IMG/VR virus record: IMGVR_UViG_3300036985_000812
Coordinates: 1-37,352 of that record
Reading direction: 5' to 3' (one strand)
Source of the DNA: a virus
DNA length: 37,352 nt
How positions within the stretch are numbered: position 1 is the stretch's first letter; the number at the start of each line of letters is the position of its first letter. Below the pieces are notes generated by a model. It was not told the DNA's origin. It searched no databases and worked only from the letters and a program-made list of their open reading frames with translations. The position numbers and the translations under genes are program-made. Shown here piece by piece: positions 16,897 through 37,352 of the stretch.

Positions 16897-19440
16897 ATGA
16901 CAGAGCAAGAAGAATTTGAGTTTCGCCTTAGACTTGAGAAAGAACAGGCAAATGCGCCACAGACCCGTGAGCAGAGGATTAGTCAAATCCCTACAGGAGG
17001 CATTTCTGCACCTGCTCAAGGCGAACGTGTAGAGCCTAGAACCCTAACACAGAGTGCTATTGAGGGGGCTATGGCTGTGCCTGTGCTCGGTGCAGGTGCT
17101 CGAGGTCTTCAGCTACTGTCAAAAGGCTCCAAAGCTGCTCCATATGTAGGACAGTTAGCTACTTCTCTCATGCCTGCTTCTGGTAAAGCTTTGTTGGCTG
17201 AAGGAGGCATTGGAGCATTGTCTGGTATAGGTGCTGAAATGGCTGCACAGGCTGCTCCAAAGGAATGGGGGCCATGGGCTGAGATAGGCGGTGGCATGGC
17301 TGGAGGTGCTGGTGGTGCTGCTATTGGTGGTGCTATGCGTAACATTGGAACAGCAGTTACTAATGCTAGGGGTCTATTTAGCTCTACGCAGGACATAGCT
17401 AATCAAGTATCCACCTTAGCAGGGGCTGGAAGGGCTTCAGCACAGGCTATTACTGCTTTGTCTGCTAACCCTAACCTTGCTGGCTCTATCGGACGTGCTG
17501 CTGAGATTGAAGCTAATACAGGTATTAAATTGCCTATGCTTGCTCAGTCTAATGGCGACACTACAATCTCTAGTTTCTTACAAAGCCAGATTGCTCGGGG
17601 TGATAACTCTGTGTTCACGGCTCAGATTAAACAACAGTATGAAGCAGCAGAGAAAGCACTGACAAAAGCACAACGAGGGGTTGCTCCTTCAATGACTGAG
17701 GTGGATGCTTATGTGAAGAAGAAAGCTTTAGAGGTTGCAGCAACTAATGAGAAAGCACTTGCAGAAGGCGTAACTAAAACTCAAGCACGGTTGGAGGGGA
17801 AAGAGCGGATCAATGAGCGTATTGTTCAGCTTACTGATGAACTACAGAAAGCACCCGGACAAGAGAATATAGGTGCTCGTCTGTCCTCTTTGTTAGATGC
17901 TAAGTCTTCTGCTATTCGTTCTGAATTAAGCCCTCAATATACTAAGCTTCTTACTGAGTCTTCAGATGCTGGTATTAAACTACCTGCTGTGGCTGCAAAG
18001 AACCTGAGAGATTATGCCTTAGATGCGCGTAATCAAGACCTATTTGCTGACCATCCTTCTTTGTTGTCAGATATTCGACGTGTTTTTCGCCCCACTGCTG
18101 ATACTACAGGGCTGGTTGCGGGTAAGTATAAGCAACAAGTTCGTGCGGATGAGAGTATGTTTAAAGACTATGAACTTAAAGACATTGACAGTTTAAAGCG
18201 GTCGGTTAATAAAGCAATCCGTGATACACAAGATATAGATAAACTCAGGCGGCTTGGAGAACTTCGTAAACAGGTAGACGGTGCTGTAGATCAAATTGAT
18301 CCTGTATTCGCAGCACCTTATCGTGCTCTAGATAAAGAATATGCCACACGCTTGGGACTTCCCTTCAGTGAACAAGGTGTAATTAATATTGATAGAGCTA
18401 AGTTTGTTGAGAATACTGTACCTGCTCTAACTAAGAATGCAAGTAGTTTGAAACAGGCAATGGCTGTTATTGGCGATGATCCAGCAGGAAAGCAGATAAT
18501 TACAGATGCTTTCTTGTTTGATATTGGAAACAACAAGAGCATTATTAATACTGCTACAGGTGAACTTAATCCTGCACAGCTTCGGAGATACTTAGCGAAG
18601 AATAAAGAGAAGTTTGATCTTGTTCCCGGCTTGCGTGATTCTTTAGAGACAACAGCCTCACGAGTGGATGTACTTCGTGATAACCGTACAGCTATTCTAG
18701 ATGCTGAAAAGAATGCTACCATTGAAAAGATTAGTAACCTGTGGTCACAGTCTTATGAAGCACCTAATGGAATTAAGGGGGTTGTACAGTCTGCTTTGAG
18801 GACACCTGCTGAACTAGATAAATTACTTGCTGTGGCTGGTAAAGATAAGGTTGCTAAGGAAGGTATTAAAAGTGCTATTCTAGAAGATATGCTTGTTGCT
18901 CAAGGGAATCGTTTAGATATACTTAATGAGAATAAAGCAGCTATTGAACGAATCTTTGGAAAACAAGAAACAAAGAATATCACAGATATTGTAGAAGCTT
19001 CTCAGCGACTGAAAGATAATCCATTTAAAATGTCTATTAATATTGGAACTATTAGTAAGACACGCTGGCAGGATTTAACTGGAAGTAAGATTGAAACCAG
19101 TTTAGGTGAGGCACGGAATCAAATCCTGTCAATGCCTAAAGTCTTTATCAACCACTTTGGACGTTACTTTACAGGGCAGGCCAATAAGAATGAAGCTGCC
19201 GAGGTACAGAAGTTTCTATTGAATCCAGCAGCTTTGAAAGATGCAGCAGCTATGATGACAGAGATAAATACACGGGGCTTTACAGAGCGCGCATTGGGGC
19301 TTACTTCTAAGCTAATGAAAAGTAGTGCAAGTTCTTGGCTCTTAGGTGCTACAGTTGGCGGTGGAATTGGTGCTCAAGAGCGTCCACAGGAAGAATATAA
19401 ACCTGCTGATGCTTCTCTGTTAGAAGGGTTCCGACAGTAA
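16897..19440 (+). CDS. Internal virion / DNA ejection protein 3 (putative)
   Basis: This 847-residue protein is the largest of the three Ala-rich proteins at the end of the structural module. After a charged N-terminus it has a strongly hydrophobic, Gly/Ala-rich stretch (about residues 48-150, for example GIGALSGIGAEMAAQAA and GGGMAGGAGGAAIGGAM) that could insert into the host membrane. The remaining 700 residues are charged and mostly helical. I saw no transglycosylase or peptidase motif of the kind in T7 gp16. Position directly before the lysis genes fits the last ejection protein. Confidence 0.65.
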   Translation: MTEQEEFEFRLRLEKEQANAPQTREQRISQIPTGGISAPAQGERVEPRTLTQSAIEGAMAVPVLGAGARGLQLLSKGSKAAPYVGQLATSLMPASGKALLAEGGIGALSGIGAEMAAQAAPKEWGPWAEIGGGMAGGAGGAAIGGAMRNIGTAVTNARGLFSSTQDIANQVSTLAGAGRASAQAITALSANPNLAGSIGRAAEIEANTGIKLPMLAQSNGDTTISSFLQSQIARGDNSVFTAQIKQQYEAAEKALTKAQRGVAPSMTEVDAYVKKKALEVAATNEKALAEGVTKTQARLEGKERINERIVQLTDELQKAPGQENIGARLSSLLDAKSSAIRSELSPQYTKLLTESSDAGIKLPAVAAKNLRDYALDARNQDLFADHPSLLSDIRRVFRPTADTTGLVAGKYKQQVRADESMFKDYELKDIDSLKRSVNKAIRDTQDIDKLRRLGELRKQVDGAVDQIDPVFAAPYRALDKEYATRLGLPFSEQGVINIDRAKFVENTVPALTKNASSLKQAMAVIGDDPAGKQIITDAFLFDIGNNKSIINTATGELNPAQLRRYLAKNKEKFDLVPGLRDSLETTASRVDVLRDNRTAILDAEKNATIEKISNLWSQSYEAPNGIKGVVQSALRTPAELDKLLAVAGKDKVAKEGIKSAILEDMLVAQGNRLDILNENKAAIERIFGKQETKNITDIVEASQRLKDNPFKMSINIGTISKTRWQDLTGSKIETSLGEARNQILSMPKVFINHFGRYFTGQANKNEAAEVQKFLLNPAALKDAAAMMTEINTRGFTERALGLTSKLMKSSASSWLLGATVGGGIGAQERPQEEYKPADASLLEGFRQ

Positions 19441-19441
19441 T

Positions 19442-19825
19442 ATGACACACATCTTTGGCCTTCAAAGTAAAGCTAAGTTAAACACTGTCCACAAGAGCCT
19501 ACAAGACCTCTTCTACGCAGCCATCGGAGAAGCCCCTTATGACTTCTCAATCACCGAAGGCTTGCGTAGCCTAGAGCGTCAGAAGCAACTCTTCAGAGAC
19601 GGTAAGAGCAAGACAATGAACAGCAGGCATCTAACAGGTAATGCTGTGGATGTTTGTATTATCATTGACGGTAAAGCTTCATGGGACTTCGATAAGTATG
19701 TTGAACTGGCTGAGTATATCAAGAAGATTGCTAAGGCAGTCAATGTACCTATTGTCTGGGGAGGGGATTGGCAATCCTTCAGAGACGGGCCACACTATGA
19801 ATTAGACAGAAAGGTATATCCATAA
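19442..19825 (+). CDS. Endolysin, M15-family peptidase (VanY/L-Ala-D-Glu type)
   Basis: The 127-residue enzyme should cleave peptide cross-bridges or stems of peptidoglycan to open the cell. The zinc site is visible: SRHLTGNAVDV gives H63 and D70, and DGPHYEL gives H118, with the usual SITEGLRS segment upstream. It is a single catalytic domain with no wall-binding module and no signal peptide, so it needs the holin beside it. Its stop is shared with the holin start (TAATG). Confidence 0.92.
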   Translation: MTHIFGLQSKAKLNTVHKSLQDLFYAAIGEAPYDFSITEGLRSLERQKQLFRDGKSKTMNSRHLTGNAVDVCIIIDGKASWDFDKYVELAEYIKKIAKAVNVPIVWGGDWQSFRDGPHYELDRKVYP

Positions 19826-20208
19826 TGCTTCCTGACCTGCTTATAGGGTTAGCTTCAAAGGTCTTCGATAAGGTCTTCCCTGACCCTTCTAAGGCTGCTG
19901 AGGCTAAGTTAGAACTGTACAAGCTTCAACAATCCGGCGAACTGGCAGCAATGCTTGCACAGACGGAAACGAATAAGGTTGAAGCAGGTAGCTCCAGCGT
20001 GTTCGTAGCAGGCTGGAGGCCATTCATAGGCTGGGTATGTGGCTTTGCTCTGATGTATCAATATCTGGTACGCCCGATCATCTTAGGCTTCTATCCTGAG
20101 TTGGTCTTCCCCGGATTAGATGATAATCTGTGGCAGCTTCTGCTCGGTATGCTTGGTTTAGGTGGATTGAGAACATTTGAGAAGACTAAGGGTGTAGCCG
20201 CTCAATAG
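19825..20208 (+). CDS. Holin, GTA 3-TM family-like
   Basis: The 127-residue protein has an amphipathic N-terminus (LLIGLASKVFDKVFPDPSKAA), a polar helix, then hydrophobic segments in the C-terminal half (about residues 59-85, WRPFIGWVCGFALMYQYLV, and 104-118, LWQLLLGMLGLGGLR). This order matches the holin family first noted in gene-transfer agents. It would permeabilise the inner membrane and release the endolysin encoded just upstream. It is the last rightward gene and is followed by a terminator. Confidence 0.87.
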   Translation: MLPDLLIGLASKVFDKVFPDPSKAAEAKLELYKLQQSGELAAMLAQTETNKVEAGSSSVFVAGWRPFIGWVCGFALMYQYLVRPIILGFYPELVFPGLDDNLWQLLLGMLGLGGLRTFEKTKGVAAQ

Positions 20209-20425: not shown

Positions 20426-20866
20426 TTAATTCTCCTTACTTACTTGTATGTAATCAATCATTCTTTGAAGAATAACTACGTTATCTTTTGTATGTCCTAA
20501 TGACACGTTACAAGAATGACATAATATTCCTCTTGCTTTTCCTGTTTCATGGCAGTGGTCAACACATGGTTCATTTAAAGAAAGTGTCCTTGTCTTACGG
20601 GCGTTTACACCCTTAAAAGAAAGCTCCCTACTACAAATAGCACAGCAACCAGCCTGCTTTAAATATAATTGACTGAAACCAAATAGAGTAAGTCCATAAG
20701 AACGTTTTAAATTCTTATTTCTCTCTCTATTTGGCTTATGCTCTGAAGATGAAGAGCAGACATAGCAGGCAACCCTGTTATTTGCACCTCTTCCGTGAAG
20801 AAGAGTAAACCCTTCCCCACAGACTTCACACTCTTTTACCGTGTGGGGCACATACCCCCCGCGCAT
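20426..20866 (-). CDS. HNH endonuclease, recombination endonuclease VII-like
   Basis: The 146-residue product has an N-terminal zinc ribbon (C13, C16, C34, C37), then a CCAIC pair and a C-terminal HNH/endonuclease VII signature, VDHCHETGKARGILCHSCN followed by LGHTKDN. T4 endonuclease VII resolves branched DNA, but many small phage relatives are free-standing homing-type nucleases. Its ATG lies 31 bases inside the end of the reductase gene in another frame. Since this phage already has a T7-type resolvase, a mobile nuclease is the more likely reading. Confidence 0.88.
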   Translation of the reverse strand: MRGGYVPHTVKECEVCGEGFTLLHGRGANNRVACYVCSSSSEHKPNRERNKNLKRSYGLTLFGFSQLYLKQAGCCAICSRELSFKGVNARKTRTLSLNEPCVDHCHETGKARGILCHSCNVSLGHTKDNVVILQRMIDYIQVSKEN

Positions 20867-22803
20867 TCTTCTTCAAGTTCGTCAGAAACGATTGTGTCAT
20901 CTACTTCAAAAGGAACTAATCTAGCCACATATTCATCAAATACCTCCTTTGTGACTACTTCTTGAGGAAGATATAAATATCCTAAATCTTTAGCTGTCTT
21001 CGTAGGGTCATTGCGGAACAAGAACGATACACCAACATAGTTATCCCAATTCAATAACAACCAATCAATAATAGCAGGTACTTCAGAGGCATCATAACTA
21101 ATAGTTGCTGATACATTCTGCTGGCACCATGTTTGCATAAGCATCTTATAACGCTCAAGCTGATCTACAGCAGATTCCAAGTTAACCTCAACACCGTTTA
21201 CTTTATCAAACTGTACAGTGTCCCACGCAACAGGTAGAGTCGCCAGTACAGATTCTTTATCAAATGGATGCTCAAATACACGATAGCCAGCAGCCCTAAG
21301 TTTAGGCACGACCAGATCAAACTTACTAAACACAACATTATTGAAAATGTACTTACCAAGAGGCTTATGAACCCCTTCAGTAGTATCCATAATCTTCGAA
21401 AGAGTACCACTTGGCTTAACCGTAGTGACATTCTTTGGACGAGGCGTATCAAGTTCATCGGCCATTGCATAAGCAGCAGCAACCGCTGTTCGTTGAAGTT
21501 CTGCATAATCATAAGCTTTCAAGTCAGGTCGAGTAGCAATACCCGTTAAGCCAACACCACAAAGGCGAAGGAAGTCATTATTCAAGTGCCATGCCTCTTG
21601 CAAGATACCGTCACGCAAGTTTACACAGGTCTGACGATAGTTTGCACGGGCTGCAATGTGTACTGCACGCCGAAGACCATCTGAATCTCCATGAAACTTA
21701 TTCAAATCAATCTCAGTGAGGTTACAGAAGCTCTTATTACCGAGCAGAATCTCTACACAAGGATTAGAGCCTTTGAACCACGGAGCGCGCTTCGTGGCTG
21801 CTTCAGCATTGATGAATCCTGGCTCAGAGCCACCAGAGTCAACCATTAGCTTAAAGATGTCCTGTAGCTCGTTCAAAGCAGGCTTAGTCTTGAACAACAA
21901 ACTGTTATTAGACTGAGCACGCTGCTCATTAGAGACCCAGAAGTCCTTCTTAGCCACTGCAAACTCTTTCCACTCATCTTCACCATACTCAAACAGAGCA
22001 ATCTCTGCACTACGGCGTGATGACAGGACAGTTCCCATCCAGTTCACCAGATCAAGAATGTTCATACGGGTCAGCAGAGACCCACTACGACGATTCAAGA
22101 GCTTGTGGATGGCTGTATAGGCTTTGGCAAGTGAGGCATCTCCTGAGCTAATCCACCCATATCCTGCAAGCCGTTCCCCTGCTGGACGAATCTCGGAGAA
22201 ATCGAGTACAAGCTTATCGGCAGGGAACTTGTGAGCCACAAGCTTACCAACAGACTTGGCCCATGCTTCAGCAGAGTCACCAACTTTGATTGTCCATACA
22301 CCATTTTTAAATGTCTCCACGTTCTCTTGCATACCACCCTTATCAGTCCGAGTGCTCCGAATAACTTCAAAGTCTGTAATGCGCTTAGAGTACCCTGTAA
22401 GCTGCCCAACAACAGGACGGAAGCCTACTCCACAGCCTTGCAACAAGAGCCACAGAGCGTCTACACAGTCCATCACAGTCTCAATGTTAGTAAAGCTACA
22501 GTTGAACTGTGAAGCCTCACGCTTCTTAGCCACTGATGTACCACCAAGCCACAGAGTGCGACCCGAGGTGAGTACCTTGCGGTCTAGCATGAGCTTACGG
22601 AGTTCAGACAACTCGTTGTGTATAGAGTAAGTCATTGCCTGACCGTTTAGGCCACGTTCCCAGAGCCACGCCTGATGCCCAATCACACGATCTACAGTTT
22701 GCTCCCAAGTCTCAAAGCCTCCTTCTTCAAGTGGACGATTGTATGTGCGGCGAGTAATAACCTGAGCACGAAGGGAGGGTGTATATGTATTAGTTTCGGT
22801 CAT
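20836..22803 (-). CDS. nrdJ: Class II (adenosylcobalamin-dependent) ribonucleoside-triphosphate reductase
   Basis: This monomeric reductase converts ribonucleoside triphosphates to dNTPs using vitamin B12 coenzyme, with or without oxygen. At 655 residues it is somewhat shorter than the Lactobacillus leichmannii enzyme. The catalytic cysteines are visible: C102 in SQFNCSF, C349 in NPCVEI (thiyl radical position, with E351), and C360 in SFCNLTEI. The C349-C360 spacing of 11 equals C408-C419 of the model enzyme. The C-terminal CAGGMC (C647, C652) is the redox pair that is re-reduced after each turnover. The enzyme looks intact although a nuclease gene overlaps its last 31 bases. Use of this class implies a host that makes or imports cobalamin. 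Confidence 0.95.
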   Translation of the reverse strand: MTETNTYTPSLRAQVITRRTYNRPLEEGGFETWEQTVDRVIGHQAWLWERGLNGQAMTYSIHNELSELRKLMLDRKVLTSGRTLWLGGTSVAKKREASQFNCSFTNIETVMDCVDALWLLLQGCGVGFRPVVGQLTGYSKRITDFEVIRSTRTDKGGMQENVETFKNGVWTIKVGDSAEAWAKSVGKLVAHKFPADKLVLDFSEIRPAGERLAGYGWISSGDASLAKAYTAIHKLLNRRSGSLLTRMNILDLVNWMGTVLSSRRSAEIALFEYGEDEWKEFAVAKKDFWVSNEQRAQSNNSLLFKTKPALNELQDIFKLMVDSGGSEPGFINAEAATKRAPWFKGSNPCVEILLGNKSFCNLTEIDLNKFHGDSDGLRRAVHIAARANYRQTCVNLRDGILQEAWHLNNDFLRLCGVGLTGIATRPDLKAYDYAELQRTAVAAAYAMADELDTPRPKNVTTVKPSGTLSKIMDTTEGVHKPLGKYIFNNVVFSKFDLVVPKLRAAGYRVFEHPFDKESVLATLPVAWDTVQFDKVNGVEVNLESAVDQLERYKMLMQTWCQQNVSATISYDASEVPAIIDWLLLNWDNYVGVSFLFRNDPTKTAKDLGYLYLPQEVVTKEVFDEYVARLVPFEVDDTIVSDELEEECAGGMCPTR

Positions 22804-22952: not shown

Positions 22953-23505
22953 TATACAGTTCTTCTTTTTCTTGTTGACGATCAAACCACAGTTTAAACA
23001 ACAGGCAACACACAGCGTGAGCTAGATGATTATTTCCTGTTTCTTCATCATGTTGTTCCCCTTGCATATATTGAGCCATGTGTCGAAAGGCTGCATCCAT
23101 GTATCGAGCATCAGCATTAGGAACATATTTCCAGTTATCAGGTGCATATTTCTGTGCTCCACTTGTTAGTACTTCAACAACTTCTTCTAAGGCTTCAAAG
23201 GGCAGTAGAGACCATTGAGGTTTATTACTGTCAAACTTTACGCCTAGTTCTTTCTTCGATGCATACTGTTTATCAGATTGTTCTTTATTATATTGCATAG
23301 TAAGCCAGTCAGTCATTTGTTTAAACACATCTTCTTCTTCATTTGTTACTTCCATATCTTCTTCTTCTACTTCCTTAATATAAATACTCCTGTCTATCCA
23401 ATTGCTAAAAGCCGTAGAAGTTTTAGAATCATAGCAAGTTACACAGGGTGATTTAACACTATCCACATCCCTATAAAAGCAGTTGAAACATTCTTTATTG
23501 ACCAT
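22939..23505 (-). CDS. dATP/dGTP diphosphohydrolase-like protein with N-terminal zinc knuckle
   Basis: The 188-residue product joins a zinc knuckle (C6, C9, C21, C24) and an acidic linker to a C-terminal domain with KFDSNKPQWSLLPFEAL, SGAQKYAPDNWK, AAFRHMAQYMQGE and DEETGNNHLAHAVC. I recognise this pattern as the phage dATP/dGTP diphosphohydrolase N-terminal family (PF18909-like). Such all-helical enzymes hydrolyse nucleotides and may trim or redirect the dNTP pool. It lies in the nucleotide cluster beside MazG, ThyX and the reductase. Substrate is inferred from the family name. Confidence 0.78.
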   Translation of the reverse strand: MVNKECFNCFYRDVDSVKSPCVTCYDSKTSTAFSNWIDRSIYIKEVEEEDMEVTNEEEDVFKQMTDWLTMQYNKEQSDKQYASKKELGVKFDSNKPQWSLLPFEALEEVVEVLTSGAQKYAPDNWKYVPNADARYMDAAFRHMAQYMQGEQHDEETGNNHLAHAVCCLLFKLWFDRQQEKEELYNDSF

Positions 23506-24259
23506 ATTTACCTTTCAGATATTCTATACTTAAAAACATTTCATCAAAGTGTCCATCATCGACTTCATTCAAGATTACAAGCCCACGCCAGTGCTTATTA
23601 CTAAGCAAATCCATGTAGTCTTCGTTGTGCTGATAATAACTACCTGCAATTATAGCACAGATGCTCTGCCCGTCTGCTCTTTTACCATAAGCCACTTGCT
23701 TACCTTGCTGGTGCCCTCCCACACAAGACATATGCAGCTTACTGATAATAGCAGCAGGACTAGCAGCAGGACGACCCATAGCGCCAACGGGCCAATAATG
23801 ATTAAAGCCAACACCATTAATAAATACCGGGTGTAGAAAATCATGTACTTCCCAATCCTTTTCATACTCTAAATCCTTTACAGATAATAAACCTTCTAGT
23901 TGAGGATTATTATTAATAGCCCTATTGATACGGTTCTCATGATTACCAAGAGTCAATACCATACGAGGCTTATACACTTTATGCTTACTCTCCTTCTGCA
24001 CCTTCTGCATATCCCGTAGAGGCTTCAGGAGCAACTGCATAGCCTCCTTAACAATTTCTACATCCTTCTTATACCTCAAGCCCTCAAAGTACTTACTTCC
24101 CTTCACATCGTGGGTAGACAGGCTGGGCATATCTGCAAAGTCGCCAATGTTTACAATAACATCCGGCTTGTAGTCACAGATAGCCTGACCTGCCCAATTA
24201 AGATGCTCAAGAGGAACACCTCCTTTCACTTGGCAGTCAGGTATAACTAGAATTCTCAT
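23495..24259 (-). CDS. Calcineurin-like metallophosphoesterase
   Basis: The 254-residue protein has the metal-binding motifs of this superfamily: PD at residue 7-8, VNIGDFADM (D40), TLGNHENR (N106, H107, E108), a NHYWPVG motif at about H154 and CVGGHQQGK (H183). The canonical GDxHD and GHxH boxes are altered (DCQ, GHQQ), so metal ligation may differ. SIO1-like phages also carry a phosphoesterase. Substrates in the superfamily range from phosphoproteins to nucleotides and nucleic-acid ends, and none can be chosen here. Confidence 0.88.
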   Translation of the reverse strand: MRILVIPDCQVKGGVPLEHLNWAGQAICDYKPDVIVNIGDFADMPSLSTHDVKGSKYFEGLRYKKDVEIVKEAMQLLLKPLRDMQKVQKESKHKVYKPRMVLTLGNHENRINRAINNNPQLEGLLSVKDLEYEKDWEVHDFLHPVFINGVGFNHYWPVGAMGRPAASPAAIISKLHMSCVGGHQQGKQVAYGKRADGQSICAIIAGSYYQHNEDYMDLLSNKHWRGLVILNEVDDGHFDEMFLSIEYLKGKYGQ

Positions 24260-29079: not shown

Positions 29080-29088
29080 ATTATAGCA
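29080..29088 (-). promoter_or_regulatory. Extended -10 element ahead of DNA polymerase (putative)
   Basis: Read leftward, TGCTATAAT is a perfect extended -10 (TGn-TATAAT) at the very end of the primase-helicase gene. No recognisable -35 was found, which such elements can lack. A start near 29073 would give a leader of about 18 bases before the polymerase ATG at 29054. Confidence 0.45.
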
Positions 29089-30724
29089 CCTCCAGCACAT
29101 CTAATTCACATTCATTCAAGTATCCTGTGAGTTTATTGTAATGTAATCCAAACTTCTCACCTGTTGCACTCCCTGCATAGCGATCTTTCAACACCCTGAA
29201 GGTAGTTGTTTGACGAACTATAGGGTCGGGAGCTTGTTTATCCCGCTCTAGACCAAACATATAATGACTCCAACGTGCAATAGCGCGAGAGCCAGTAAAA
29301 TGTTTCTCGAGAACTCTTCCTCCTTCCTCATGAGCCTTACCCTCTGGAGTAGTGAGGTGGCTAACAAAGTGAATAATGAGGCCGTCAGATTGAGCCAAAG
29401 AAGCCATATCTGCCATGATTCCATCAAGTGCTCTCCGTTCATCTTGTTCGTTAGCTGCCAAGGCTGTCAAGTGGTCTAAATAGATCATTTTGATGTCATA
29501 AACCTTGGCAAAATACTTAATAATACCCTTTACAGTAGTCCAATCCATAGCACCGAAGTGCTCCATCATGTATAACTGCTTGCGTGCATCAATACGTTCT
29601 ACGCTTTCTTCATACTCTGTGCGTGTCCATCCTGCGTCAGGAATATGATACAGTTTTCGGTCAATCTTTCCAGCTACCCGCTGTGCAGTTTCTACGACAT
29701 TCTGTTCCAAGTAGATCACACCGACACGCTCGTTCAACACTTCAATGTCATAGGCAATCTGTTGTGTAAATACATCAGTTTTACCTACACCCACGCCAGC
29801 CCCGAAGCCATACAATTCACCCCTACGTCGACCGTAGGTAAGCTTTGTGAGGCTGTCAAAGCACCAAGGTACACCAGCCACAGCCGGGGTTAACATACGC
29901 TCCTTGATGTCACTCACAGTCACGATGCCTTCAGGCTTAAACTCTTCAGCCCTCCACCATGCGTTAGTGAACTCTTTCTCCTTACCCTGCATCAGATAGT
30001 CACAGGCATCTTTGAAGCCTGCTAAGTGCTTCATAACCTTAGCCTTACCTGAGAACAGTTCAGCTACTTCCTTAGAAGCCTTCTTACCCGGTTCGTCACT
30101 GTCAAAGCAGATCACGATACTGTCAAAGCTGTTAAGCCACTCAAATGATGCCTTGCAGTCCTTTAAAGCAGCTTGTGCTCCATTACGAACACTTACTGAA
30201 GGGTAGAGGCTACCTTGCATCTGGAAAGCTGCTAGAGCGTCTAGTTCTCCTTCACAGATTGTAACGGCCTTACCTCCAGAGTTAAATAAGCTCTGCCCGA
30301 ACAGGACAGCCTCATTAAATGAGCCCTTGATAGTGAAAGCTTTATCTGCAACGGTTCGCACCTTAGCAGCAACTGTGTCTCCTGCTCCGTTAGTGTAAGG
30401 ATAAAAGTGTCGTCCATTCTCTTGTGTTACTCCATACTTATCACACGTTGAGCGTGTAATGTTACGATCTGGGATTGACTTAATAGTGCCTGTAATTTCC
30501 ATCGGTATCGTGCTCTTTTTATGTTTAACGCTTGATTTACTGTAACTTATGTTGTCATCACTACATGACGCGAACGCTGATGTATATGCAGTACATACAG
30601 AACAATAAGTATGTCCATCATCATATAGTGATGCTGCATCGCTGCTACCACACTGATTGCATGGAATGTGCTTTAGGAAGTTGCTCTTCTGTAGAGTCGA
30701 TGTTTGGTATGGGTGCTGCTTCAT
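29081..30724 (-). CDS. Bifunctional DNA primase-helicase (T7 gp4-like)
   Basis: The 547-residue protein opens the replication fork and makes primers. The N-terminal zinc finger has C22, C25, C41 and C44 in a HIPCNQC...YCSVC setting. The Toprim core follows with ICEGELDA (about 156-163) and IVICFDSDEPGKKA (about 203-216). The helicase half has Walker A GAGVGVGKT (308-316), then VIYLEQN, MIYLDHLTALA (Walker B-like) and a ARWSHYMFGLERD motif near the end. Domain order and length match T7 gp4 (566 residues). The start overlaps the previous gene by 80 bases; no better Met was seen before the zinc finger. Confidence 0.96.
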   Translation of the reverse strand: MKQHPYQTSTLQKSNFLKHIPCNQCGSSDAASLYDDGHTYCSVCTAYTSAFASCSDDNISYSKSSVKHKKSTIPMEITGTIKSIPDRNITRSTCDKYGVTQENGRHFYPYTNGAGDTVAAKVRTVADKAFTIKGSFNEAVLFGQSLFNSGGKAVTICEGELDALAAFQMQGSLYPSVSVRNGAQAALKDCKASFEWLNSFDSIVICFDSDEPGKKASKEVAELFSGKAKVMKHLAGFKDACDYLMQGKEKEFTNAWWRAEEFKPEGIVTVSDIKERMLTPAVAGVPWCFDSLTKLTYGRRRGELYGFGAGVGVGKTDVFTQQIAYDIEVLNERVGVIYLEQNVVETAQRVAGKIDRKLYHIPDAGWTRTEYEESVERIDARKQLYMMEHFGAMDWTTVKGIIKYFAKVYDIKMIYLDHLTALAANEQDERRALDGIMADMASLAQSDGLIIHFVSHLTTPEGKAHEEGGRVLEKHFTGSRAIARWSHYMFGLERDKQAPDPIVRQTTTFRVLKDRYAGSATGEKFGLHYNKLTGYLNECELDVLEVL

Positions 30725-30971
30725 GGAAAACTTCTATCGTTGTGTCAATTGGTTTATAAAAGGTATTCAGCGTTTCAAATGCACCTGATTTGAACTTCTT
30801 TAATACTACGGACGTTCTAACCTTCATAGCGCCTAAGTTGTAGTGATTCAATGCAAATACACTGGCTACAGGGTACTTCGGGTTATCAGCGTAATTAAAG
30901 AACTTTGCAGGTGGCAGGAATATTACCACAGGCTTATTGTCTTTATTTACTTCTTTAGATAATCTTTTCAT
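30645..30971 (-). CDS. Hypothetical protein overlapping primase-helicase
   Basis: The 108-residue protein starts with an AAGGAG ribosome binding site and ATG 30971, has a PVVIFLPPAKFFNYADNPKYPVASV stretch and a beta-rich middle, and ends in a different frame 80 bases inside the primase-helicase gene. Such a long overlap is unusual, and the C-terminal part (EEQLPKAHSMQSVW) may be dispensable. No family recognised. It lies between the RNA ligase and primase genes. Confidence 0.65.
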   Translation of the reverse strand: MKRLSKEVNKDNKPVVIFLPPAKFFNYADNPKYPVASVFALNHYNLGAMKVRTSVVLKKFKSGAFETLNTFYKPIDTTIEVFHEAAPIPNIDSTEEQLPKAHSMQSVW

Positions 30972-30985
30972 TTAATTTCTCCTTT

Positions 30986-31987
30986 TCATTCGTATTTACA
31001 CAACCATTTATTACTAATCGCTTTAAAAGAATCCTGCGAGTTTGAACAAGATTTATATACAAGTCCTTCACGCAGAGACTTATTTAATAAGCTCTCGCCT
31101 TCTGCTGTCAATAGTATAGCACTGATATCAAACAAACAATCCTGAGCTTCAAAGATTACAGGGACGTGATTAAGACCAAGTTCTTTACATAGTTTCCTCC
31201 GAGTTCCCGGCAGTAGGTACTGTTGCGCTTGGATATCAAAGATATCGTAAACAAAGAACTGTGCCTTACTTAAACCATACTGATTACCTTGAATGCCGGG
31301 GCCACATAGTTCGCCCTGAATAGCAAAGTCCCAATCCCTATCATGATTAAACATCTTGTTTTCTATGTATAGTTCACGAGCTACTTGCCAGAATGTATTA
31401 CCCCCTGTCTCTTTAAGATCAAGGTTACGACTACATACTCCAAATTCCCCATAACGTTGGTATACGGTCATTGAACTACCGTCTAACTTCTCAGTCACTT
31501 CCCATTCTACACCCTGTTCTTTCCAGTCATCATACCGTAGTTTAAGATTCTGGATACGCTCCTGATCTGTCTTTGGAATAAATGTTGGGAAGTTACCCTT
31601 AGCAAGCCCTGTTAAGCAGGCAGCAATGGGTTTTTCGTACAATTGAATACCAAGGTACTCTGTTAGGTCTGTCCCTTCTTCAAGGTGGTTATCGTGTAAG
31701 TCTAATAGCAATCCTTGTGAGATAATCCCCTTGAGCTTCTTAGTTCGTAATCGTTCACCCACTATACCATTAAATTCATGCTCTTTACTCTGTGCCAAAA
31801 AGGGAGCTAATTTGAGGGGAACCCATGAGTCGATCTCAATGTAGATAGCTAGGTCAAAGGTTTTGAATTGTCCTCTCTTAACTACTACATCCCAACCGCC
31901 GATACGGGCAAGCTCAATGAAGTCTGCCCCTTGAATAGCAACAAGTTGGTCAATTTGTCGCACTGTTGCTAGTTTACGAGTATTCAT
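30986..31987 (-). CDS. RNA ligase, DRB0094 (Rnl5)-like
   Basis: This enzyme seals RNA ends through an AMP-lysine intermediate. The 333-residue protein has an N-terminal OB-type domain (about residues 1-115) and a nucleotidyltransferase domain with all motifs: I at EKLDGSS (K167), III at GELCGPGIQ, IIIa at FFVYDIFD, IV at LREGLVYKS and V at SFKAISNKW. An OB domain at the N-terminus is the mark of the Deinococcus DRB0094 ligase family. ATG 31987 with an AAGGAG site is the start; the frame upstream to 32071 lies inside the next gene. Phage RNA ligases often repair tRNAs cut by host defence nucleases; that role here is inference. The start overlaps the previous stop (ATGA). Confidence 0.88.
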   Translation of the reverse strand: MNTRKLATVRQIDQLVAIQGADFIELARIGGWDVVVKRGQFKTFDLAIYIEIDSWVPLKLAPFLAQSKEHEFNGIVGERLRTKKLKGIISQGLLLDLHDNHLEEGTDLTEYLGIQLYEKPIAACLTGLAKGNFPTFIPKTDQERIQNLKLRYDDWKEQGVEWEVTEKLDGSSMTVYQRYGEFGVCSRNLDLKETGGNTFWQVARELYIENKMFNHDRDWDFAIQGELCGPGIQGNQYGLSKAQFFVYDIFDIQAQQYLLPGTRRKLCKELGLNHVPVIFEAQDCLFDISAILLTAEGESLLNKSLREGLVYKSCSNSQDSFKAISNKWLCKYE

Positions 31988-32388
31988 GTGTTCTTCTCCT
32001 TTAGTTTGGCTTCGATGGCTCGGGCTACCAGTAAATCTCGCCGCCCTACTGCCCCCGCACTTGTGACCCACTCATCCGTCAACCCAACCCACTCGCGCTT
32101 CGGTGGGGTGGTGTAAACGGGTACTCGGCCTTCGCCAGCATTCTTGTAAATAGTCCCACAATTGACGGTTTCAAAGTGCTGACGCACCTCATCAATCTTT
32201 ACCCATCCTTCTGCTGCGTTCCAGTATTCAAGCGGCTCCTGCTCCGGCTGTGCCAATGCTTCTCTGATGGCGGTAATAGCGCTATCTTCAAGTGAATGGG
32301 GTATCCATGCAAGGCCCTCATACACGCGAATCTTCTCAATATTCTCCAGTGCCTTAAGTGCCAGCTTCAGTGCTTCGTCTTTAGTCAT
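31984..32388 (-). CDS. Hypothetical protein in a GC-rich patch
   Basis: The 134-residue product starts TKDEALKLALKALENIEKI, continues AITAIREALAQPEQEP and ends with VPVYTTPPKREWVGLTDEW before a charged helix. I know this pattern from hypothetical proteins of phages and prophages of Burkholderiales and other aquatic bacteria, without a function. Its DNA is visibly richer in G and C than its neighbours (for example around 32040-32110), a sign of recent transfer. Coupled to both neighbours by 4-base ATGA overlaps. Confidence 0.72.
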   Translation of the reverse strand: MTKDEALKLALKALENIEKIRVYEGLAWIPHSLEDSAITAIREALAQPEQEPLEYWNAAEGWVKIDEVRQHFETVNCGTIYKNAGEGRVPVYTTPPKREWVGLTDEWVTSAGAVGRRDLLVARAIEAKLKEKNT

Positions 32389-32624
32389 TCTGTTACTCCA
32401 AAGTGTGTTTCAATACTAATTGATACTCTTACCAAAGCATCGTCTGTTTCAACACTGTGGTATTTAATTCGTTCATCGGCAATTAGCAGTTGAACTTCAA
32501 GCAGAATTAACTCGGCGAACTTTTCAGAAAACTGTAGCAGTCTTTCATGTGTCATTGTGTCCCAAGTGTGACTAAATTTATCATCTAGGGTTTTGCCTAT
32601 TAGTTCTTTAATTCGTTCGTTCAT
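32385..32624 (-). CDS. Hypothetical protein, KFAELIL family
   Basis: The 79-residue, helical protein begins NERIKELIGKTLDD, has a core of FSEKFAELILLEVQLLIADE and ends SISIETHFGVTE. Short proteins with this start, FAELI core and HFGV end recur in aquatic phages and metagenomic viruses, with no known activity. Coupled by ATGA overlaps on both sides, it belongs to the chain of tiny leftward genes before the RNA ligase. Confidence 0.68.
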   Translation of the reverse strand: MNERIKELIGKTLDDKFSHTWDTMTHERLLQFSEKFAELILLEVQLLIADERIKYHSVETDDALVRVSISIETHFGVTE

Positions 32625-37003: not shown

Positions 37004-37032
37004 TTGACATTGAGAGAAATCTAGTGTATAAT
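37004..37032 (+). promoter_or_regulatory. Perfect consensus sigma70 promoter for the late block
   Basis: TTGACA (37004-37009), exactly 17 bases, TATAAT (37027-37032): all 12 consensus positions match. It points rightward across the circular junction into the terminase small subunit gene, giving a leader of about 240 bases. With no phage RNA polymerase found, it fits control by host RNA polymerase. Such a strong promoter may need to be held off early by a phage factor. Confidence 0.85.
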
Positions 37033-37225: not shown

Positions 37226-37352
37226 CCTTTTAAAATAATTGTTGATAATTGTCTTCCTTAGAAAGGATAAAAGACTAATGGATATTGAAGTAGAAGAAAC
37301 AAAAGAAGATAGGTCTATAAGAGCAAAGGCTTTTACTATCAGTAAGAGAAAA
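37226..37352. repeat. Terminal direct repeat, right copy
   Basis: Identical to bases 1-127. It contains a second, truncated copy of the terminase small subunit start (ATG at 37278). Treat it as the same locus after circularising, not as a second gene. Confidence 0.95.

Follow-up and report, generated by a model that had tools for sequence, protein, structure and literature searches.

Described Relatives of the Phage RNA Ligase

The RNA ligases DraRnl (DRB0094) of Deinococcus radiodurans and NgrRnl of Naegleria gruberi close breaks in which the sealed 3′-OH must sit on a ribonucleotide. An enzyme of this family was followed up in a viral record of 37,352 nucleotides (IMGVR_UViG_3300036985_000812, positions 1 to 37,352), which is called the window below and means the whole stretch of DNA that was analysed. 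Like DraRnl, the window ligase matches the TIGR02306 model as a whole protein and has an OB domain followed by a nucleotidyltransferase domain. With NgrRnl, which is known from PDB entry 5COT and from mutants, it shares the full-length fold, 43% identity and the catalytic residues, NgrRnl itself being eukaryotic and grouped in the tree with proteins of Undibacterium, Zooshikella and Variovorax, apart from the window protein. The window protein also falls into the same family as the phage RNA ligases PHA02142/phrog_968, whose records are at least 76,209 bases long (60 best and 40 spread of 321, in overlapping lists) versus the 37,352 of the window.

The nucleotidyltransferase fold is common to T4 Rnl2 and Rnl1, although the alignment of Rnl2 to the model of the window ligase is confined to the catalytic domain (Z 19) and Rnl1 reaches a Z of about 14. 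Unlike DraRnl, the window enzyme is phage-borne, and unlike both DraRnl and the tRNA repair system of T4 Rnl1 and Pnkp, it is encoded in a genome where no AAA_33 kinase was found; AAA_33 was the kinase family searched, and it had no match in G000, G001 and G002, the window genome included, so that no T4-type combination of Pnkp and ligase was detected in the window genome.

The Phage Genome and the Ligase Gene

The window begins and ends with the same 127 bases (1–127 and 37226–37352), an exact overlap that is taken as that of a closed assembly, so the genome is probably complete. Among twelve records compared, the overlap was present in the window, G001, G012 and G025 and absent in eight others, including G002 (locus L043). 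The phage had been described as T7-like, which holds for its replication genes, since the primase-helicase and family A polymerase (phrog_239, phrog_17) and endonuclease I (PF05367) are of T7 type, but the search for a T7-type RNA polymerase was negative: the single-subunit RNA polymerase PF00940 was detected in none of 15 records (the window and 14 relatives), the T7 control giving an E of 9.9e-110. A perfect sigma-70 consensus (TTGACA, 17, TATAAT) lies at 37004–37032 on the plus strand and faces the plus-strand genes; it fits a phage that has no RNA polymerase of its own, but promoter-like sites are abundant in the window.

The ligase gene, recognised as an ORF with family matches, runs on the minus strand at 30986..31987, and the interval given in the first-pass annotation is filled exactly by this one ORF, with its ATG at 31987, its stop at 30986 and 333 aa. 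An alternative in-frame GTG start would give 361 aa and run into the upstream gene, while the ATG shares 4 bases with the end of the upstream ORF and is concordant with the starts of relatives. Downstream, the first replication gene is the T7-type primase-helicase (29081..30724, minus strand; Pfam, PHROGs), followed by the family A polymerase, a 144-aa ORF, an exonuclease, endonuclease I, ThyX, a MazG-like protein, the metallophosphoesterase, a dATP/dGTP diphosphohydrolase-like protein, an adenosylcobalamin-dependent ribonucleotide reductase and endonuclease VII. The reductase (20836–22803, minus strand) matches the adenosylcobalamin-dependent ribonucleoside-triphosphate reductase model TIGR02505 at 614.3 bits, and its identity is only about 25–28% in several relatives (e.g., L044, L046, L053) in which the neighbouring genes reach 60–85%; reductases have perhaps been swapped among such relatives.

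Family, Active Site and Fold

The NCBIfam equivalog TIGR02306 (“RNA_lig_DRB0094”) was matched at 174.3 bits (cut-off 151.15), over residues 6–331 of 333, and a six-frame search of the genome with the same model returned the ligase at 173.8 bits. At E 0.01 the only Pfam matches of the protein were RNA_ligase PF09414 (110.7 bits, cut-off 27), covering a nucleotidyltransferase domain at residues 161–324 (31016..31507, minus strand), and the PHA02142 OB-fold PF21189 (80.5 bits, cut-off 27), covering an N-terminal OB-like domain at residues 6–96 (31700..31972, minus strand, computed from the residues). The phrog_968 “RNA ligase” family was matched at E 4.7e-86. The DNA_ligase_A_M domain of ATP-dependent DNA ligases (PF01068) was not matched by the protein.

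The nucleotidyltransferase domain contains K167, D169, R187, E226, E307 and K322. In the 41 aligned rows, window included, K167, R187, E226, E307 and K322 are identical throughout, and residue 169 is D in 39 rows and H in 2. According to PMC9931718, the catalytic residues of the Naegleria enzyme are K170, D172, E227, E312 and K326 (catalytic lysine, metal-binding and phosphate-binding residues), and these correspond to K167, D169, E226, E307 and K322 of the window protein. An AlphaFold2 model, built from the 41-row alignment (mean pLDDT 92.5), superposed on the Naegleria gruberi RNA ligase with Z 40.7 and rmsd 1.6 over 326 residues at the identity given above; the superposition is full-length (1–333 of the model on 1–337 of the NgrRnl chain), with no extra C-terminal domain. 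Against T4 DNA ligase, Z was 12.7 and the match was confined to the catalytic domain. The first-pass annotation had named the gene a DRB0094-type RNA ligase with all nucleotidyltransferase motifs and an N-terminal OB domain; the family models, the NgrRnl-like fold and the five published catalytic residues bear this out. The protein is almost certainly a stand-alone RNA ligase of the DRB0094/Rnl5 type, one that depends on ATP and seals nicks. The annotation is thus correct and largely ordinary, that of a known and common family in a small phage genome. Relatives of the ligase occur in 321 phage records, 317 of which cover at least 80% of the query and all of which are below 60% identity. Outside the window group, the closest ligases are those of the viral loci L002 and L025, at 68%.

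An Accessory Slot Ahead of the Replication Genes

The ligase is bordered upstream by a 134-aa ORF (31984..32388, minus strand), whose stop overlaps the ligase start, and downstream by a 108-aa ORF (30645..30971, minus strand; no Pfam or PHROG match), which fills the gap to the primase-helicase, lies 14 bases past the ligase stop and overlaps the primase-helicase gene as called. The two ORFs mark the borders of a variable slot. In L043, whose primase-helicase and polymerase are 94% identical to those of the window, the alignment holds until window position 30983 and resumes at 32610, and between these points there is no ligase, its slot being taken by a 93-aa ORF that begins MSGGHFDY (L043:9470-9751, plus strand; no Pfam match). 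G001 (locus L042) shares the arrangement of the window, its ligase immediately preceding the 108-aa ORF. In other phages, tblastn placed relatives of the 108-aa ORF on the upstream side of the RNA ligase, and a family of about 100 aa occurs in 16 of 37 RNA-ligase loci; judging from its positions, it is probably the family of the 108-aa ORF.

Between the window and L042, the dN/dS of the ligase is 0.11, and the gene is therefore under purifying selection. Its dS is 1.87, which is close to saturation and usable only as a contrast with the core genes, six of which lie at 0.40–0.79; the 108-aa ORF has 1.24. Since the ligase differs so much from the core genes in dS, its allele has a history of its own. 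The best reading of the locus is that the ligase is an accessory gene in a swappable early-region slot just ahead of the replication genes. The window or G001 on the one side and L043 on the other thereby offer a natural pair, with and without the gene, in which the role of phage DRB0094-type ligases can be asked. Beyond the first-pass annotation, the comparison adds that near relatives exist with and without the gene, that the metallophosphoesterase is no partner of it by co-occurrence and that substitution for a DNA ligase is unsupported.

Proposed Function

The most plausible explanation is that this DRB0094/Rnl5-type ligase, carried in an accessory slot, probably serves to seal nicked host RNA, its putative substrate. 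By analogy with characterised relatives, K167 would take AMP from ATP, the AMP would then move to the 5′-phosphate of the broken strand, and the adjacent 3′-OH, which in the relatives belongs to a ribonucleotide, would close the nick. The probable job would be the resealing of host tRNA, or of other structured host RNA, that was cut in defence or stress, and the substrates would be breaks that already bear 3′-OH and 5′-phosphate ends, since no kinase was found and the phosphoesterase does not track the ligase. The latter enzyme (23495..24259, minus strand; Pfam, PHROGs) had been put forward as a possible processor of the ends, which its distribution does not favour: with loci cut at 10 kb flanks, a relative turned up at 37 of the 80 loci found with the primase-helicase, of which 36 lack an RNA ligase, and the RNA-ligase loci L002–L041 had none. 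A partnership of metallophosphoesterase and ligase is thus not supported here by co-occurrence.

Other viral genomes that carry the ligase point to RNA repair. tRNA matches were present in 19 of 27 such records and AAA_33 (kinase-type) matches in 17, 16 of them over the cut-off. In Microbacterium phage Cece, the ligase is surrounded by tRNA genes, with RtcB about 2 kb away, whereas in S-CREM1, pf16 and VCM its neighbours are mostly unnamed genes. In PMC10879173, a DRB0094 ligase is reported for 54.5% of theta-ribozyme phages. PMC7824862 regards the RNA ligases of phages as enzymes of tRNA repair, usually accompanied in jumbo phages by kinases and phosphoesterases, and a kinase-free repair gene is atypical because of this general company. 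Repair of RNA or tRNA, of which the first-pass annotation had proposed the mending of tRNAs cut by host defence nucleases, stays the likeliest role on indirect evidence, although the genome offers neither a tRNA gene nor an AAA_33 kinase in its favour. The search for tRNA genes in the window found none, and Rfam at the gathering score returned nothing in the window, L042 or L025; the window has two weaker matches under that score, which look like chance. Among cellular relatives, 80 loci had no widely shared neighbour, and the largest non-ligase cluster comprised 7 of the 80 (six Chitinophaga and one Flavihumibacter).

The main rival to RNA repair is a replication-linked role, in which the enzyme would work next to the primase-helicase, joining 3′-OH RNA to 5′-phosphate ends at primers or at nicks that end in a ribonucleotide. 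This reading is rather unlikely, but it fits the fact that the ligase is near the primase-helicase both in the window, where the two are one ORF apart, and in many other loci. Neighbourhoods were counted with a simple ORF caller over 5 kb on each side in the 37 loci with a tblastn match (L002–L037 and L042; L038–L041 had no ligase match at 1e-6). Of these, 19 have a primase-helicase no more than two genes downstream, 17 a DNA ligase no more than two genes upstream, and 16 both; the order DNA ligase, RNA ligase, primase-helicase is also that of Limnohabitans phage DC31. Against this stands that the 14 tree rows with this order form one clade, which may mean that the order arose once and was inherited, and that several of the loci are near copies. 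Moreover, the closely similar primase-helicase of L043 operates without a ligase, and the Rnl5 relatives in pf16, S-CREM1, phiM12 and Cece have no annotated primase within 5 kb.

If RNA repair is the role, the question arises which breaks could be mended by a ligase alone. The PARIS effector AriB, as described in PMC12409363, cuts the tRNA anticodon stem between positions 40 and 41 and leaves 3′-OH and 5′-phosphate ends. A duplex nick of the AriB type could be closed by a DRB0094-type ligase without end-healing, and the ligase might conceivably be a one-gene, kinase-free counter to nucleases that nick tRNA stems in this way, a suggestion that is more doubtful than the replication-linked role. 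If true, it would explain why the ligase is kept by a 37-kb phage that has neither Pnkp nor tRNAs, and a whole class of defences that cut tRNA would be overcome by a single small gene. The passages of PMC12409363 on AriB make no mention of resealing of its cuts, and among the titles listed in the literature searches none is on this phage group.

Still less probable is it that the enzyme maintains the phage's own RNAs, through tRNA or mRNA processing, and not those of the host; the enrichment of the DRB0094 family in theta-ribozyme phages (PMC10879173) would speak for it, and the window, in which no tRNA or ribozyme was found, speaks against it.

Search for a DNA Ligase

The first-pass annotation had found no DNA ligase in the genome and had asked for a check for a missed one. 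The check was run on the window and 40 relatives, drawn from 80 records found with the window primase-helicase (mostly longer ones; many are fragments), and six-frame searches with PF01068, PF01653 and phrog_114 gave no match in any of the 41, the window included. As controls, the T7 ligase was detected by PF01068 and phrog_114, and PF01653 was positive in 11 of 14 control genomes. In the same group, the RNA_ligase model matched only the window and one of the 40 (G001), the other 39 having none, and tblastn over all 80 primase-helicase loci gave L042 as the one locus with the RNA ligase. Two of the records with closed ends, G012 and G025, have neither an RNA ligase nor a DNA ligase. Carriage of the RNA ligase consequently does not follow the absence of a DNA ligase within this group, in which the same replication genes can do without either.

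The converse comparison was made in 27 of 40 other viral RNA-ligase records, 13 being left out; the sample is biased to the kin of the window, since the patterns used to find it came from the window protein, and it contains near copies (G041/G057 and G058/G059, both by equal scores; G044/G045; G052/G053/G066). PF01068 matched in 22 of the 27, 21 of them above the cut-off, and phrog_114 gave a strong match in the same 21, which thus have a separate DNA ligase and include the records of L002 and L025. That the RNA ligase replaces a missing phage DNA ligase, a possibility raised by the lack of one in the window, is the least probable reading of all, because the sister records lack both ligases (no DNA ligase in 40, and no RNA ligase either in 39 of these, the closed G012 and G025 among them), most RNA-ligase records have both, and the host ligase can do such work, as it does for T7.

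Two PF01068 matches, that of G060 (15.2 bits) and the second one in G062 (15.5 bits), were rejected as DNA ligases, both lying inside the RNA ligase itself. A weak phrog_114 match in G064 (24.3 bits) was left uncounted. In this 162-kb viral record (locus L033), the ligase relative is spread over two ORFs of 140 and 269 aa, with its parts at 18109–18390 and 19155–19874 of the contig, about 0.76 kb apart, and the gene may have been split by an insertion or an intron.
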